Shown: piece by piece, positions 5,559 through 12,705 of the stretch
Layout: the number at the start of each line of letters is the position of its first letter
Numbering within the stretch: the stretch's first letter is position 1
DNA from: Methanogenium cariaci JCM 10550
GTDB lineage: Archaea; Halobacteriota; Methanomicrobia; Methanomicrobiales; Methanomicrobiaceae
NCBI RefSeq assembly: GCF_001315945.1
Contig: NZ_BBBG01000009.1
Coordinates: forward strand, 1 to 64,000
DNA: 64,000 bases
Reading direction: 5' to 3'
Position numbers and translations under genes: made by a program
The notes under the pieces: generated by a model
The model's database searches: none
What the model was told of the DNA's origin: nothing
What the model saw: the letters and a program-made list of their open reading frames with translations, nothing else

Positions 5559-6745
5559 TTATTCACCCAGAGCAGCGGCAATGCATTCCTCGGTAGAACC
5601 GAGAACTGCCTGCGCGCCACACATATTCGGTACATAGGCAAACGCCTTGCCTGAATTGACCATAATGGTGCCGAAGTGATCCATTCCGGGCGAGACAACA
5701 ATACAGGTGTCCTCCCATACTCGTGCCCCCTGACTGCTCAATGGTCCCCACAAGATTGGGATGCGCCTGCGCCACACCCCGTGCAGCAAAGATGTAGAGT
5801 GGTTTTGTCACCTGTTTTCCTTTCAGGAGACCGGCAATCTCCTCCAGTTCCTCTTCTGAGCAGTGCGGACATCCGATTGCCACCGCATCGACGGTCCTTT
5901 CCTCAAAGATTGCCTCAATCTCCTCCCCGGTGATGGTAATTGTTTCAAGGGCGGAAATATCTGTTCCGCGTTCCTGCAACACACGGGAATCGGGAGTGAT
6001 ACCATCGACATGATACAGCGCCACCGCACCGCTGGCAGCCATTGCAGCGCCAAGTGCCTTCAGCTGGTCGCGGTTCGGCCGCAATCCATAAAAGAACGGT
6101 ACACGGTTTCCTGCCTCCTTTCCGGCGAGATACCCAATGGCACCGTAATGACCGGCATGAAGGGTCTCATCCGCTTCAACCCGGAATGCCACCTGCGGCA
6201 TCCGGTTCTCCCAGAGGTGCAGACCATAGTAGGGGGTCTTCCCGACAATCGCAGCGGCAAGGGCAGACGGCCCTCCCTCACGGTTTGTGCGGGCACCAAT
6301 GACAGAGTTCGCATAACAGACGGCAGAGGACTCTGACCATGCGATGTGTTCTCCATAGGATGTCCGGTTGATGTAATACGGCGTGCAGGTGCACTCCAGT
6401 TTAACTCCCAGCCGGTGGTATGCCTCCAGGACAGCGTTCTGTTTCTCCGCAAAATCCGGGGGTGATGCCGCCCATCTCCTGCCAGCGTTCACGCGGCATC
6501 CCAATGGGGGGGTTGAGGACAGCGGGCACTGCCACCCGTGCATCAAGGCTCCTCAGCCATTCGAGTCCCCCCCATTTACCTATTGTCTTGTATGATGCAC
6601 CGGCCACCTGTGCACTGGTGATCGGCACAAATTTCTCTGCCCCCCCGAATACCTTTCCAAGGGCAACGAGAATCTCCATCATCTTCCTGCGGGTTTCGCC
6701 GTATTCTCCCGCAAGAACCTTTTCATCATCTGAATCAAGGTACAT
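5559..6745 (-). CDS. Aconitase X large subunit: probable phosphomevalonate dehydratase, two frameshifts
   Basis: The product (about 395 residues when repaired) matches the aconitase X / DUF521 catalytic subunit: VPITSAQVAGASYKTIG near the N-terminus, YGEHIAWSESSAVCYANSV and GARTNREGGPSA in the middle, AIGCPHCS, and a C-terminal CGAQAVLGSTEECI. Archaeal members dehydrate (R)-5-phosphomevalonate to trans-anhydromevalonate phosphate, with a separate small subunit not found here. Frame breaks at a C5 run at 6467 (C4 expected, giving TPDFAEKQ) and a G5 run at 5730 (G4 expected, giving QSGARVWEDT). The gene follows the UbiD-like gene by 6 bp, which supports the mevalonate role over proline metabolism, the other aconitase X role. 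Confidence 0.85.
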
Positions 6746-6751
6746 TATATA

Positions 6752-8007
6752 TCAGTCCCATTCTGCTCTGATAAACTTCTCTTCTTCGCCCATGACCATT
6801 GTTGCGTCAATCCCCCCCATCTTCACATTGGTACCGTCACCAATACGACAGGGGTCAAGGGAGGAGCCACGAACGCCTTCGATGATCATCACATCCCGGT
6901 CGGCACGCACACGGGTTGCAATGGCATACTCCACATCCTCCATCCGGAACGTTGATATCCTCATCAACCACGACCACATGCTTCAGGGACGTATGGGCAG
7001 CGAAGGCGGCCATAATCGCATTCTTGGCATCACCCTGCGTGCTCTTTTTGATCTGAACAATACCATGCAGATACCCGCATCCCCCGGTTGTCAAAACCAC
7101 GTTTTTCACCCGGGTCACTCCTGCAACCGCCTGGAAGATCTTTGGTTCATAGGGCATGCCCATCAGAATTTTATGTTCATTACCGGCCGGAAGAATCCCG
7201 TGATAGATGGCATCCGGCTTCATCTGCATCCCGGTAATCTCAATCACCGGGCCCTGCCGTATCGGGTCATAGGTGCCGGTGATATCCACGAACGGGCCTT
7301 CTGCTGTGGTCTCACTGCCGATGTAGCTTCCAGCACAATCTCCGCGTCCGGCACACGCACCCCCCCGTTGGAACAGGTGTTCAGTTCAATCTCACCGCCC
7401 AGGAGTTCCGCAGCATACTGCATCTCTTTTCCCTGCGGCACGCGGTGCATGAAGCAAAGGTCACTGCCGGATGAGTCCCGATGGTGATTGCAACCGGCAG
7501 ACGTTCCCCCCCATCGGCCAGGGCATCCTGAAGCAGGGAATGCGTATGCCTCCCTTCTACCAACCGGGCCGCGAGTCGTCTCTCATCCACGACCTGCATA
7601 CGGTGAATGGATGCATTTTCAACACCGCCGTACTGTGAGAAGACAACCGCTGACGTCAGATATCTTCCTGCATCAAGGGGGGGAAAGTGTTTCATCACCG
7701 GAAGCAGACCGAGATCCGGCGCGCCCATACTCAGACGGGCCCCTTCCGTAGTCACACCGTTCTGTCCGGTTGCCGCCAGACGGGGGGGCACAATGTCATG
7801 TTCCGGAATTCCCAGTGCACAGGAAAGGGACGCACGCGATGCCGTCACGTTCATCACACCCTTCCTGTCACCATCCAGGTTATGGAAGAATATCAGATCA
7901 TCGGTCTTACTGGCCAGTTTCGGGGGGGCTTCAAAGACAGTTGAACAGGGTGTTTCAATATCAATGACACGGCCTTCCTCCCGCATTTTTTCAATAAATG
8001 TTCGCAT
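6752..8007 (-). CDS. UbiD-family decarboxylase, probably anhydromevalonate phosphate decarboxylase, several frameshifts
   Basis: The repaired product (about 418 residues) is a UbiD-like prenyl-FMN-dependent decarboxylase: N-terminal [17 protein letters not shown], the central [15 protein letters not shown] segment, the [20 protein letters not shown] helix, VVDEDINV and a C-terminal [20 protein letters not shown]. In archaea this family converts trans-anhydromevalonate phosphate to isopentenyl phosphate. The gene lies between its cofactor-maturation enzyme (UbiX, overlapping TAATG) and the dehydratase that makes its substrate. Breaks occur near 7435 (CCC read as CC), 7325 and 6965. Another aromatic-acid decarboxylase is possible from sequence alone, but the context argues strongly for isoprenoid synthesis. 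Confidence 0.85.
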
Positions 8008-8562
8008 TAGTATTCACCACTCCATCGTGTACTGAGCGTATGGTCGACATGCATATGATCAAGGACGCGGGCCACCACCATATCGATTAGATCCTCAATG
8101 GTCTGCGGCCGCGTGTAAAATGCCGGGCTGATAACCATGATGGTAGCACCTGCCTCATCAAGGGAGAGCATATTCTTCAGGTGAATCCGGGAGAGGGGGG
8201 GCATCTCACGCGGCATCAGAATACATTTTCGTCCCTCTTTCAGGCAGACATCCGCGGTTCGGGTAATGAGATTATCCGAAAATCCGGATGCAATGGCGGC
8301 AAGCGTCTTCATGCTGCATGGAATGATCACCATCCCGTCATACCGGAATGACCCGCTTGCAAGATCGGCGAACATATTCCCGTTATCCGCATAGACCACG
8401 TCAAACCCGGAGAAATCCACCCCCTTCATACGCTGCAATTTCGTGTGCAATATCTGAGATGATAAGATGCACTTCTGCTTTGTCCTGGAGCACCTCCAGA
8501 AGGCGTCGTGCATACACCATCCCGCTTGCACCGGTCACTGCCACAACAAATCGTTTCTTCAT
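8007..8562 (-). CDS. ubiX: Flavin prenyltransferase UbiX, one frameshift
   Basis: From ATG 8562 the product begins MKKRFVVAVTGASGMVYARR, the FMN-binding UbiX N-terminus, and continues through SDIAHEIAAYEGVDF to IIPCSMKTLAAIASGFSDNLITRTADVCLKEGR and LMPREMP(P)LSRIHLKNM. UbiX joins dimethylallyl phosphate to FMN to make the cofactor of UbiD enzymes. The frame breaks at a G5 run at 8422 (G4 expected), which makes the first 45 residues appear missing. About 184 residues, as usual for the family. Its stop overlaps the UbiD start (taatg), so translation is coupled. Confidence 0.92.
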
Positions 8563-8578
8563 ATCGACAACTGCCTGC

Positions 8579-9804
8579 CTATAGTATTAGTTTGTCCTGC
8601 TTAGTTGGCTTTTTGATTGATAATACCCTGCCTGCTGCATCCGCAACGGCATCCTGCTGGCCGGGTGTGGTATATATTCCCAGACGCCACTGTCCTCTCC
8701 GGGCTTTATTCAGGGCGGTCAGGAGGGGGGGAGATATCTCTTCAAGGGATTTCAGGTCATAATGGTCCTCAACCCTGACACCCATCCGCATCTCGGAGGG
8801 AAAGGCAGGAATGTCCACAAGCACCGTGATTGAATCAACCCCCCCTGCCTCTGCAGCAATATCTTCTGCAATCTCCCGTGACCGGATCACTGTGATTCCC
8901 TCTCGATACCCCCCCTCTGCATTGACCTGATCCTGACCAACGTAGACGGCACGTTTGTAGAGGCGACGGTCAAGAATGCGCTGTGTCAGGCTGACCGCCT
9001 CCTCTGAAGGGGGGGATGAAAGAAGGGCGGCAATAAAGGCGAAATCATTCATCCGCACCATATCAGGGTACGGGTTCCCTCCCATTGCAGTGGCATGTGC
9101 CAGACTTGCCAACAGTATCATTGATTCTGCAATCCGTGACACATGATGGTAGTAGACAGAGGGACGCATGAGTGTTCGTGCAAGAAGCAGGGATTCTGCG
9201 GAATGGATCCCGTTCTCCCGAAGATACAGGCCGTATTCATCATGTATTGCACTGCTGTGAATCAGCCGGTCAGGATCCACTGTCCCGTAGGGCACTCCGG
9301 TGTAATGCGCATCACGCATCAGGTAGTCCATGCGGTCAACGTCAAGATCCCCCCCGTGAATGATTCCTGCATACCGGTGGCTGCCGTTCACCATCGCCGC
9401 AATCTCATCCGGGTCAACTCCCGCCCCGGAGAGGACAGGGGGGGCCATTTCCTCAATCAGCAGGGGGCGCAATGTCGTCATGCCCCCTGTTGCAGAATTC
9501 GGTAAGGAGCGGTTCTGTTGCATGCGAAAACGGCCCATGCCCGATATCATGCAGAAGACCTGCCGCTTCTGTAAGCAGACATGCATCCGCATCCAGACCC
9601 AGTTCGCGGGCCATGCTGCCCGCCAGATGCATCGTCCCGACAGAGTGTTCAAACCGGGAATGATTTGCACCGGGGTATACCAGATGGGAAAATCCAAGCT
9701 GGCGTACATACCGGAGGCGCTGCACATGGGGGAGCATCAAGAAGAGGGAGGAGGTCATCGGATACACGGACATGGCCATGTACAGGGTCTTTTATTGTCT
9801 TCAT
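8579..9804 (-). CDS. HD-domain phosphohydrolase, two frameshifts
   Basis: From ATG 9804 the product begins [19 protein letters not shown], then [31 protein letters not shown] and the HD signature [12 protein letters not shown], with [15 protein letters not shown] further on. This is the archaeal/bacterial dGTPase-like (SAMHD1-related) HD family of about 400 residues; substrates are usually dNTPs or other phosphoesters. Breaks occur at C5 runs at 9729 and 9465 (C4 expected in both). Extra residues at HG(G)DLDVDRMDY and MAP(P)VLSG lie at 7-base runs. It is first in the minus-strand operon and 16 bp before ubiX; why an HD hydrolase leads a mevalonate operon is not obvious. Confidence 0.85.
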
Positions 9805-9858: not shown

Positions 9859-10797
9859 ATGATAACGTTCCTTTCCGGCGGAACCGGTACCCCCCCGAAA
9901 CTGATGCGGGGGGGATTCCGGACGCTCATGGAAGACCATGAGATGACGGTCATTGTAAACACCGCAGAAGATATGTGGTTCTCCGGCAGTCACCTCTCAC
10001 CAGACCTTGATACCGTGATGTACCTCTTTGCAGACCTCCTTGACACAGAGAGATGGTGGGGGGGCATTGAGGATGACACCACCATCACCAGTACATTTCT
10101 GGAAAAGATTGGGTATCCTGAACCGCTTACTCTCGGGGGGGACAAAGACCGTGCCATCAACATTGCACGTGCAGAGCTGCTTCGCGCGGGAATGTCCCTC
10201 ACCGAGGCAACGAAACATCTCTCATCCCGTCTCCAGTGTGATGCGACCATTCTCCCGATGTGTGACACGGAAGTTACCACCTGCATCCAGAGCAGTGGTA
10301 GTGAGATGCACTTTCAGGAATACTGGGTCAAACACCGGGGACAGGTGCCTGTCGACGCCATCATCCGGAGATGCAGTGAATCACCTGTGGCAACAGAACA
10401 GGTCTTAATAGCAATCCATGATGCCGATGCAGTGATCATCGGTCCGTCAAATCCGGTCACCAGTATATCCCCCCCAATTCTGGAATGCGAGGGGGTAAAA
10501 GAGGCGCTCAGAGATCAGTTTGTAATCGTGATCAGCCCGTTTATTGGTGATGCACCGGTGAGCGGACCTGCAGCAGAACTGATGATGGCCTGGGATATGG
10601 CACCCAACGGGCAGGCAACCTATGATCTCTACCGGGATTTCACCGATGTATTTGTACAGGATATCCGTGACCCTGTCGCAATAGAAGGGGCCGTTCGTCT
10701 GGACACCCTCATGACAGACAAAGAAGTGACACTGGCACTGGCAGAAAGCATTCAGCGAATCATTGACACTGCAGCAGACCCCCCCAGGAATGCATGA
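9859..10797 (+). CDS. cofD: 2-phospho-L-lactate transferase CofD (coenzyme F420 synthesis)
   Basis: CofD transfers a lactyl-phosphate (or phosphoenolpyruvyl) group from the activated guanosine compound to the deazaflavin Fo. The product starts MITFLSGGTGTP(P)KLMRG, the nucleotide-binding motif, followed by VIVNTAEDMWFSGSHLSPDLDTV, DDTTITSTF and IIGPSNPVTSI, and ends in VQDIRDPVAIEGA; 313 residues, normal for the family. The ATG at 9859 is chosen because it starts the conserved motif and has an A/T-rich promoter upstream. No frame break, but extra Gly/Pro residues sit at each 7-base run. Its stop overlaps the start of the next gene (ATGA). F420 is the main hydride carrier of hydrogenotrophic methanogens. 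Confidence 0.95.
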   Translation: MITFLSGGTGTPPKLMRGGFRTLMEDHEMTVIVNTAEDMWFSGSHLSPDLDTVMYLFADLLDTERWWGGIEDDTTITSTFLEKIGYPEPLTLGGDKDRAINIARAELLRAGMSLTEATKHLSSRLQCDATILPMCDTEVTTCIQSSGSEMHFQEYWVKHRGQVPVDAIIRRCSESPVATEQVLIAIHDADAVIIGPSNPVTSISPPILECEGVKEALRDQFVIVISPFIGDAPVSGPAAELMMAWDMAPNGQATYDLYRDFTDVFVQDIRDPVAIEGAVRLDTLMTDKEVTLALAESIQRIIDTAADPPRNA

Positions 10798-11808
10798 CAC
10801 AGGAACACTACGCATTTCGTGAAATTGACCGTGCGGTGGCGATGACGAAATCCATTCTGATTCCGTTTGATATTGGAATCTGGCTTCGTCTGGCACTCAT
10901 CGCCCTCTTTGCAGGAGGTGCGGCAGGGGGGGCATGCAGTTTTCATCAGGCTCCCTCTCTTTCGATGATATCGGAGACGGGGAATTCCTCGGCTCGGTGA
11001 TTCCCCCCCAGAACCCTGATGCTCTTGTTTCAGCCATGCTGCTCTTCGCAGGCATTCTGCTCTGCATCGGTCTTGTCTATCTCCTGTTAAACGGGATATT
11101 CCAGTTTATCTTTATCAAGCACTCGGAGCAGGGAATATCCGGATACGGACATACTTCCGCGAAAGTACCGGGCCCGGCATCCGATACTTTGCATTCCTCT
11201 TCCTGCTCTCGTCCCTCTTCTTTGGTATCTGCCTGATACTTGCGTATCTGCTGTTTGCTCCTCTTGTGGCTACCGCCCCCCCTGTCGGCCCGGAGGTTGC
11301 AGGAGGTATCCTGACATTTGTCATACTGATGTTCATCCTCCTTGTTCCCTATCTCATCATCCTGATGCTGACAACGGATTTTGTTGTCCCCCCATCATGA
11401 ACATCGACCGGTGCGGTATCATTGCAGGATGGCGCCGGTGCTGCATCTGTTCAGCAGGGAAAAAACGGAAGCGGCCCTCTATACAATCATGAAACTCGTT
11501 CTCTCAGTCTGTGTCAGTATCATCCTCTCCCTTGTAGTGGTTGTTGCAGGGATTGGAGCCGGTATCCCCCCTGATGGGCATTTTGATTGCCGCAGGGGGG
11601 GCCGCAAAACGTATCTCTGACTTTTATGGGTCTTCTTTTTGCAGCATATTTTGCCGTGGTTACCTTCTGCGGACTGATCGCAAGTGTACCATTTATGACA
11701 TTTTTACGCACGTATTCCCTCTATGTTGTCGGGGATTTCGATGACATATATGCGCTTCTGCCAGACCTGTCATCATCTGACGCAGGGGAGGCGTCGAAAG
11801 CAGTATGA
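10794..11808 (+). CDS. Polytopic membrane protein of unknown function, several frameshifts
   Basis: Reading through breaks (near 10930, 11165, the C6 run at 11388 and the C6 run at 11566), the region encodes about 335 residues with a short cytoplasmic N-terminus (HYAFREIDRAVAMTKSILIP) and roughly six hydrophobic segments, including AMLLFAGILLCIGLVYLLLN, ILTFVILMFILLVPYLIILM and LVLSVCVSIILSLVVVVAGI, ending VGDFDDIYALLPDL. It resembles membrane proteins with DUF4013/DUF7544-like domains common in Methanomicrobiales; I assign no function. Its start overlaps the cofD stop and its stop overlaps the start of the cofD paralogue (ATGA at both junctions), so the three genes form a tight operon. Confidence 0.65.
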
Positions 11809-12705
11809 TCACCTTCATATCAGCCGGAAGAAAATCTGCCCGTCTCATTGCAGGATTTCGTTCGTTCATGGATGATTCGGCGATTACGGTCATCACATCA
11901 ACTGCAGATGCGGAGGTATCACCATGTGGGTGTTCCCTTTCCGATCTTGATACTCTGACATTTCTCTTTGCAGGCGTCCTCAACAGCAAAACATGGCGGG
12001 GGGGTATCCAGGGAGACACCTGTACAACACACCGTGCCCTCAGGCGCTTGGCACAGAAGAACCCGGCCGGTGGGAGATCAGGAACGTGCCCTGCACATAT
12101 CGCGGGCACAGAGACTGGAGGAAGAGTGCCTTACCGATGTGACCGTTGCTATCAACCGCACCTACGGAATCATGGCACACATTCTCCCGGCCACCGACAC
12201 TATCGGAGGATGGTCTGTCACCACCCCCCCGGACGGACGGATGTCCCTTGCCCGTTACCGGACTGCCTATGGTGATGACACCCATGCCTGTGCGGTACAT
12301 GCTCCGCCGGACGGTATCCCTCATGCAACCGCAGAGTCTGTTGAAGCAATCAAAAACAGTGACGTCGTGATCATCGGACCCGGGAGACCGGTCACCGGTG
12401 TCATGCCGGCACTGATGTGCACCGGCATCCCTGAAGCGCTCAGGGAGGTGCCCGTCATATCATTTGTTCCGTTTACCAGCGAGCGGGGTATGGCACCTGA
12501 GAAATGGGGGGGATATATTCCGGATACTACGGCTGAATGCCCGGCCTATGATCGGTTCACCGATCTCTATCTGATGGATATACGTGATCCTCTCGTTTTT
12601 GAAGGTGCCCTCCCCCCCGTTGACACGCGGATGGGTTCACGCAGCAGACGGGAGTCACTTGCATGGGACATTCTGGCACTCGCAGAGGGTCTGAAAAAAG
12701 AGTGA
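11805..12705 (+). CDS. CofD paralogue with altered nucleotide-binding motif, frameshifted
   Basis: The product aligns by eye with CofD along its length: MITFIS at the start, STADAE for the NTAED segment, SDLDTLTFLFAGVL, IIGPGRPVTGVMPAL, and YLMDIRDPLVFEGAL near the end. The CofD motif GGTGTPKL is replaced by SAGRKSARL, so the substrate-binding loop is changed and CofD activity is doubtful. The frame changes near 12035-12080; the repaired length is about 300 residues. The gene is two genes downstream of cofD in the same operon. It may act on another guanylylated or nucleotide substrate, or regulate CofD; both are guesses. Confidence 0.7.

Follow-up and report, generated by a model that had tools for sequence, protein, structure and literature searches.

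Hydrogenotrophic methanogens rely on F420 as their central hydride carrier; to our knowledge, no control of its synthesis has been described in these organisms. For FbiA of M. smegmatis, the FbiA structure paper assigns the metal to Asp45 and Asp57, the enclosure of GDP to residues 239-254, and the Fo pocket to residues 69-102 together with 145-189. According to the F420 review, CofC/FbiD shows no activity unless CofD/FbiA is present. The review's passages on CofD do not mention the degenerate CofD paralogue analyzed here (hereafter PAR), and the strings 'paralog' and 'duplicat' are absent from its text. A search of open-licence papers likewise returned no description of PAR.

The window, i.e., the whole 64,000-nucleotide stretch of Methanogenium cariaci JCM 10550 that was analyzed, is contig C9 of a genome (G000) of 2.69 Mb in 52 contigs. 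The canonical 2-phospho-L-lactate transferase gene, cofD, lies on the plus strand at 9859-10797; its product scores 313.8 bits against TIGR01819 (equivalog cut-off 257.45) and matches the M. mazei CofD of structure 3c3d with an E-value of 2.3e-73 (phmmer). On the same strand follow the gene of a polytopic membrane protein of the DUF7544 family (PF24400; 10794-11808), whose frame is broken in this assembly, and PAR (11805-12705). The initial annotation had reported a second CofD-like protein beside cofD, joined to it through a membrane gene with ATGA overlaps on either side, and both observations hold: the overlaps are read directly at 10794-10797 and 11805-11808. Both are also present in G001, G003, G004 and G006, and G002 has the second only, provided that the downstream ATG is the start. 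The window's PAR is spread over two frames, with a break between about 12041 and 12070, and matches TIGR01819 in two pieces of 40.0 and 77.8 bits, below the cut-off. An intact orthologue, 85% identical to it, is found in Methanogenium sp. MK-MG (G003). Divergent from cofD, on the minus strand at 5563-9779, are genes for UbiD, a UbiX-type flavoprotein and an HD-domain protein, which are present in most loci of the family, with Pfam families read on the G006 orthologues. The HD-domain gene (8579-9779, minus strand; PF01966 and PF19276 in the G006 orthologue) is a conserved neighbor that occupies two reading frames here.

Within the window, 189 runs of G or C are exactly 7 bases long and 35 are 8 long, versus only 102 of length 4. 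When the window is compared pairwise with six Methanogenium loci, a procedure in which one run may be counted several times, a run of 7 here corresponds to 4 in the relatives in 48 of 50 cases, 8 to 5 in 4 of 4, 5 to 4 in 11 of 13, and 4 to 4 in 20 of 20. A/T runs match between the window and these loci, with few exceptions. The excess of 7-long G/C runs recurs in four stretches of contigs C1, C5, C20 and C35 of the same genome, and is not seen in five relatives. That is, this assembly often lengthens short G/C runs by three bases, and contains other shifts besides. Stretching a run in this way inserts one in-frame residue; together with the other shifts it may be a cause of the 59% completeness of the assembly. 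The phosphate loop of CofD (9874-9903, plus strand) appears in the assembly as SGGTGTPPKL, since a C run that is 4 long in the relatives has become 7. Since the DUF7544 and PAR frames are open in relatives, and the assembly has this run-length fault, we take the breaks in both frames of the window to be likely assembly errors.

The phosphate loop of PAR is a different matter. At 11820-11846 (plus strand), SAGRKSARL replaces SGGTGTPKL, as the initial annotation had read it. The same nine residues are found in the PARs of G001, G002 and G003, and they sit outside long homopolymers; the corresponding loop in G004 and G006 is SGGSESARL. Sequencing error is thus ruled out by a loop common to relatives, and comparison with these genomes did not restore a normal CofD loop. 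An alignment of 49 CofDs shows SGGTGTPKL at these columns in 48 and AGGTGTPKL in the remaining one, with the window's extra proline as an insertion. The whole SGGTGTPKL motif occurs in none of 53 PARs (0/23 from the window's family and 0/30 from the Methanoculleus family).

A TIGR01819 profile search covered 217 genomes of the order and 96 genomes outside it. At least two matches were found in 23 of 28 genomes of the Methanomicrobiaceae, the window's family, which includes Methanogenium and Methanomicrobium mobile (f1), and in 35 of 40 genomes of the Methanoculleus family (f4), some of the multiple matches being pieces of one gene in a few genomes, e.g., G000, G025, G095, G105 and G118. The remaining Methanomicrobiaceae are G005, which has one match and is cut by a contig end, and four genomes with none. 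The other 149 genomes of the order comprise 135 with one match, seven with two (f5, where the second matches are known from the count alone) and seven with none. None of the 96 genomes outside the order has two TIGR01819 matches (92 have one and four have none). The absence of orthologues elsewhere, which would have spoken against the initial annotation, is therefore refuted by match count in both families.

In all 22 Methanomicrobiaceae genomes whose PAR was read, a canonical CofD is present as well. The order cofD-DUF7544-PAR, on one strand, is found in 18 of the 22 genomes in which PAR was located, the window not counted. The exceptions are G010, where the locus is split across contigs; G018, where PAR lies about 0.6 Mb from cofD; and G025 and G026, where cofD and PAR are adjacent and DUF7544 is missing. 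In the Methanoculleus family, PAR is directly upstream of cofD, on the same strand and 73-500 bases away, in 33 of the 35 genomes in which both were matched; PAR is 2.2 kb upstream in G086 and on the other strand in G104. The remaining five genomes have PAR alone at a contig end (G110, G114), CofD alone (G119), a fragment (G102) or nothing (G103). PAR is conserved in two families, and is no local oddity. Among phages, one record was seen with a CofD-like sequence: MT835975.1, a 14 kb 'Bacteriophage sp.' entry from human faeces that carries no annotation, encodes at 6372-7223 a stretch with 31% identity to a Methanoculleus PAR.

The phylogeny of the paralogues that had been suggested was calculated with 79 rows. 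All 29 PAR rows group in a single clade (support 100/98), divided into subclades of the two families, on branches longer than those of the CofDs. A recent local duplication is ruled out, as the clade spans two families. The free tree groups PAR with the CofDs of families f3 and f6 (100/98); the AU test does not reject a constraint placing PAR with the CofDs of its own two families (p-AU 0.062), and long branches may affect the placement. From these trees, PAR is best explained by a single ancient event, a duplication of cofD or an acquisition, dating either late, to the ancestor of the two families, or earlier. In 15 within-genus pairs (Nei-Gojobori), some of which share genomes and so are not all independent, and some of which have dS near or above 1, dN/dS is 0.10-0.39 for PAR and 0.06-0.32 for CofD, the G001 PAR being entered three codons short. 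The PAR ratio is below 1 in all 15 pairs and exceeds that of CofD in 11. Alignment A1 contains 28 PARs, all with open frames. These ratios indicate that PAR is under purifying selection, as would be expected of a constrained protein rather than a relic.

To describe the active site, residue roles were taken from FbiA, not from the M. mazei CofD, and carried over by alignment. Asp45 of FbiA corresponds to the Glu of NTAED in CofD (column 35) and Asp57 to the first Asp of SPDxDT (column 47); SPFIGDxPVSGPA is the counterpart of the FbiA lid, and HFQEYW that of its HFQEWW. Unless a larger set is given, column counts refer to 49 CofDs, 23 PARs of the Methanomicrobiaceae and six of the Methanoculleus family, leaving out the CofD of G005, which is cut by a contig end. 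There are 64 columns that are near-invariant in the CofDs; 28 of them are kept in fewer than half of the 23 Methanomicrobiaceae PARs, and 16 in fewer than half of the six others. Across all 29 PARs, Q149 is kept in none, P232 in two, and A233 and W152 in one each, and neither D36 nor W65 is found in any of the 23. Column 35 is Asp in 19 of these 23 and never Glu, Asp being the residue found in FbiA too, and column 47 is Asp in 12. Acids occupy both metal columns in 10 of the 23 (the PARs of the window and of G003 included), in 21 of 30 Methanoculleus-family PARs and in 49 of 49 CofDs; 13 of the 23 have no acid at one of the two columns. Judging from the alignment, the metal site of PAR is eroded in many lineages and not gone, and the window's PAR has both acids.

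The lid differs between the two families. It is short or unconserved in the Methanomicrobiaceae, whose loop and one metal column also differ between genera. In the Methanoculleus family, K13, D93, Q149, P232 and A233 are each kept in 0/30 PARs, and in place of the CofD lid stands a conserved type, SPF[SR]G..APDPKDAAL, with K232 in 30/30 and D230 and D233 in 28/30. Two residues of the last helix, S288 and W291, never vary among the 29 PAR rows, and few CofDs have them (5/49 and 4/49). TIGR01819 matches each of the 28 PARs in alignment A1 at an E-value of 0.01, and those that were scored fall below the equivalog cut-off (141.9 bits for G003 and 209.1-238.4 for six of the Methanoculleus family). 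The AF2 model of the G003 PAR has a pLDDT of 89.9, lowest at residues 221-240, about the lid, and aligns with 3c3d over 281 residues (Z 32.0, rmsd 2.5). PAR is thus predicted to keep the CofD fold throughout. As far as can be judged from the aligned columns, the phosphate loop, the Fo-pocket motif (HFQ.YW) and the GDP lid are lost or replaced, and PAR is very probably unable to carry out the CofD reaction.

The membrane protein was assigned with PF24400, which at an E-value of 0.01 matches all 18 of the cofD-locus membrane proteins scanned; the G004 orthologue scores 214.3 bits, against a gathering cut-off of 27. The gene in the window matches in six pieces on the plus strand (10794-10991, 10934-11122, 11116-11391, 11391-11444, 11438-11572 and 11587-11769). 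In G003 the gene (L033:5540-5986) has only 148 codons, covering model positions 1-73 and 262-316, and keeps both ATGA overlaps. No PF24400 match was found in G025 or G026, in which cofD and PAR are nevertheless adjacent, and in G018 DUF7544 stays with cofD after PAR is gone from the locus. The cofD/PAR pair of the Methanoculleus family is adjacent without it: DUF7544 is absent in G030 and G035, and on another contig or far away in G040, G045, G050 and G055. In other families of the order it is located away from cofD. In two f3 genomes, G044 (L154) and G034 (L156), it is divergent from a tetrapyrrole cluster with an NAD-binding protein and glutamyl-tRNA reductase, to which G044 adds ALA dehydratase and a class-III aminotransferase; the surroundings in G040 (L157) and G045 (L159), judged by position and first residues only, are alike. 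The DUF7544 model (pLDDT 76.7) has no PDB match at E <= 0.001, and no paper on the family was found in the open-licence literature. DUF7544 is dispensable to the cofD/PAR pair, its link with PAR is loose, and the family has no specific tie to F420; in one family of archaea, it is most readily explained as an optional companion, or a membrane tether, of cofD. The initial annotation had taken the membrane protein to link cofD and the paralogue, which holds weakly: the overlaps and gene order of the Methanomicrobiaceae agree with it, but the arrangements of G018, G025, G026 and the Methanoculleus family do not.

A second CofC was considered as a mark of a parallel pathway. Exactly one CofC match above the cut-off was found in 58 of 60 genomes, the exceptions being G000, where it is in pieces, and G002, which has no match. 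A second CofC above the cut-off was found in none of the 60; weak second matches to the model, of 18-44 bits and below the cut-off, occur in thirteen. The single CofC therefore counts against a separate pathway that would have a guanylylated donor of its own, short of excluding it. CofE (TIGR01916) has at least two matches in most of the 60 genomes, both with and without PAR, and one copy is often beside cofC; its copy number is thus uninformative as an indicator.

We tentatively propose that PAR is an ancient, CofD-derived and mostly non-catalytic partner or regulator of the CofC/CofD step. After its ancient origin from cofD, PAR would have been kept by purifying selection in the Methanomicrobiaceae and the Methanoculleus family; through its CofD-like surface it may pair with CofD or dock on CofC, and may tune or stabilise LPPG transfer. 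Because CofC is inactive without CofD, a CofD-shaped PAR that does not transfer would have a target. We infer its inactivity, its binding partner and its regulatory effect from the sequences and the predicted structure. In favor of a partner we count the conserved pairing with cofD, the lost CofD columns, the predicted fold, the selection and the single CofC; against it, the metal site that is not uniformly lost, the off-locus PAR of G018, the weak extra CofC matches, the higher dN/dS of PAR in 11 of 15 pairs, and the conserved Methanoculleus lid, which with K232 in 30/30 suits a working ligand site. The main rival, which we hold to be possible if somewhat doubtful, is an active transferase or hydrolase with a changed substrate, i.e., a protein that keeps the metal site, rebuilds the lid and the phosphate loop, and uses another nucleotide-activated donor and another acceptor. 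Its best arguments are the metal acids, both kept in 10/23 and 21/30 PARs, and the Methanoculleus lid, rebuilt (K232, D230, D233) while K13 is lost in 30/30; purifying selection suits it too, and the CofD-fold protein GlmR performs a different reaction, according to PMC10128056. However, the lack of a second CofC above the cut-off in 60 genomes gives no hint of another such guanylylated donor, 13/23 Methanomicrobiaceae PARs are without an acid at one metal column, D36 is lost in 23/23, and the lid in that family is short or unconserved. The initial annotation had named an inactive partner or an enzyme for another guanylylated substrate. This is partly supported and remains the right pair of alternatives; the lost loop, Fo motif and lid and the single CofC favor the former, and the kept metal acids oppose it. 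It is also conceivable, and in our estimate unlikely, that PAR acts as a switch, taking the place of CofD on CofC, or of one half of a CofD dimer, and so gating production of the unstable LPPG. This would be a layer of F420 control confined to two methanogen families, and the rebuilt Methanoculleus lid, whose lysine never varies, would together with the largely retained metal acids serve to sense a nucleotide or an F420 intermediate, or to turn it over.

Three further explanations appear weaker than any of these. That PAR and DUF7544 form a membrane complex recruiting CofD to the membrane is improbable: the ATGA overlaps in Methanogenium and the cofD-DUF7544-PAR order in 18/22 Methanomicrobiaceae genomes would fit, but G025 and G026 have no DUF7544 match, G018 has it apart from PAR, and in the six Methanoculleus-family genomes named above it is absent or distant. 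We think it very improbable that PAR still makes F420-0, or a variant of it (e.g., from 3-phosphoglycerate or phosphoenolpyruvate), with unusual residues. The TIGR01819 matches of the 28 A1 PARs, the conserved fold and the partly kept metal acids are compatible with such activity, whereas the scores below 257.45, the loss of Q149 in all 29 rows and the canonical CofD in all 22 genomes are at odds with it. A decaying duplicate without function is hardly credible: the loop and metal column that vary between Methanomicrobiaceae genera, the long branches, the frameshifted window copy and the dN/dS above that of CofD in 11/15 pairs could be read as decay, but the clade is one, is old and spans two families, the 28 A1 frames are open, dN/dS stays at 0.10-0.39, and the shifts in the window fall in an assembly whose run lengths are faulty in general.

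The presence beside cofD of a conserved and selected copy of CofD, its active site dismantled, points to an unrecognised component of the CofC/CofD step. In practice, it would be a mistake to annotate the second 'cofD' genes of the two families as 2-phospholactate transferases, or to use them as such.

Among known systems, PAR is closest to CofD itself (M. mazei 3c3d/3c3e; TIGR01819), with which it shares the fold over its whole length (Z 32.0, from the model) and columns D49, W64, D70, G90, R94 and G191-P192; unlike CofD, it has a lost or replaced phosphate loop, Fo-pocket motif and GDP lid, only partly kept metal acids, and scores below the equivalog cut-off where scored. FbiA (M. smegmatis 6uvx-6uw7) is likewise similar in fold to the PAR model (Z 27.5-29.1), and 19/23 Methanomicrobiaceae PARs have Asp at the Asp45 column; the Asp57 column, however, is Asp in only 12/23, and the FbiA lid (239-254) is not conserved in PAR. 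YvcK/GlmR (UPF0052, TIGR01826) has a related fold (Z 16.5-21.6) and offers a precedent for a CofD-like protein with another reaction, although the G003 PAR scores only 31 bits on TIGR01826, for which the cut-off is 196.
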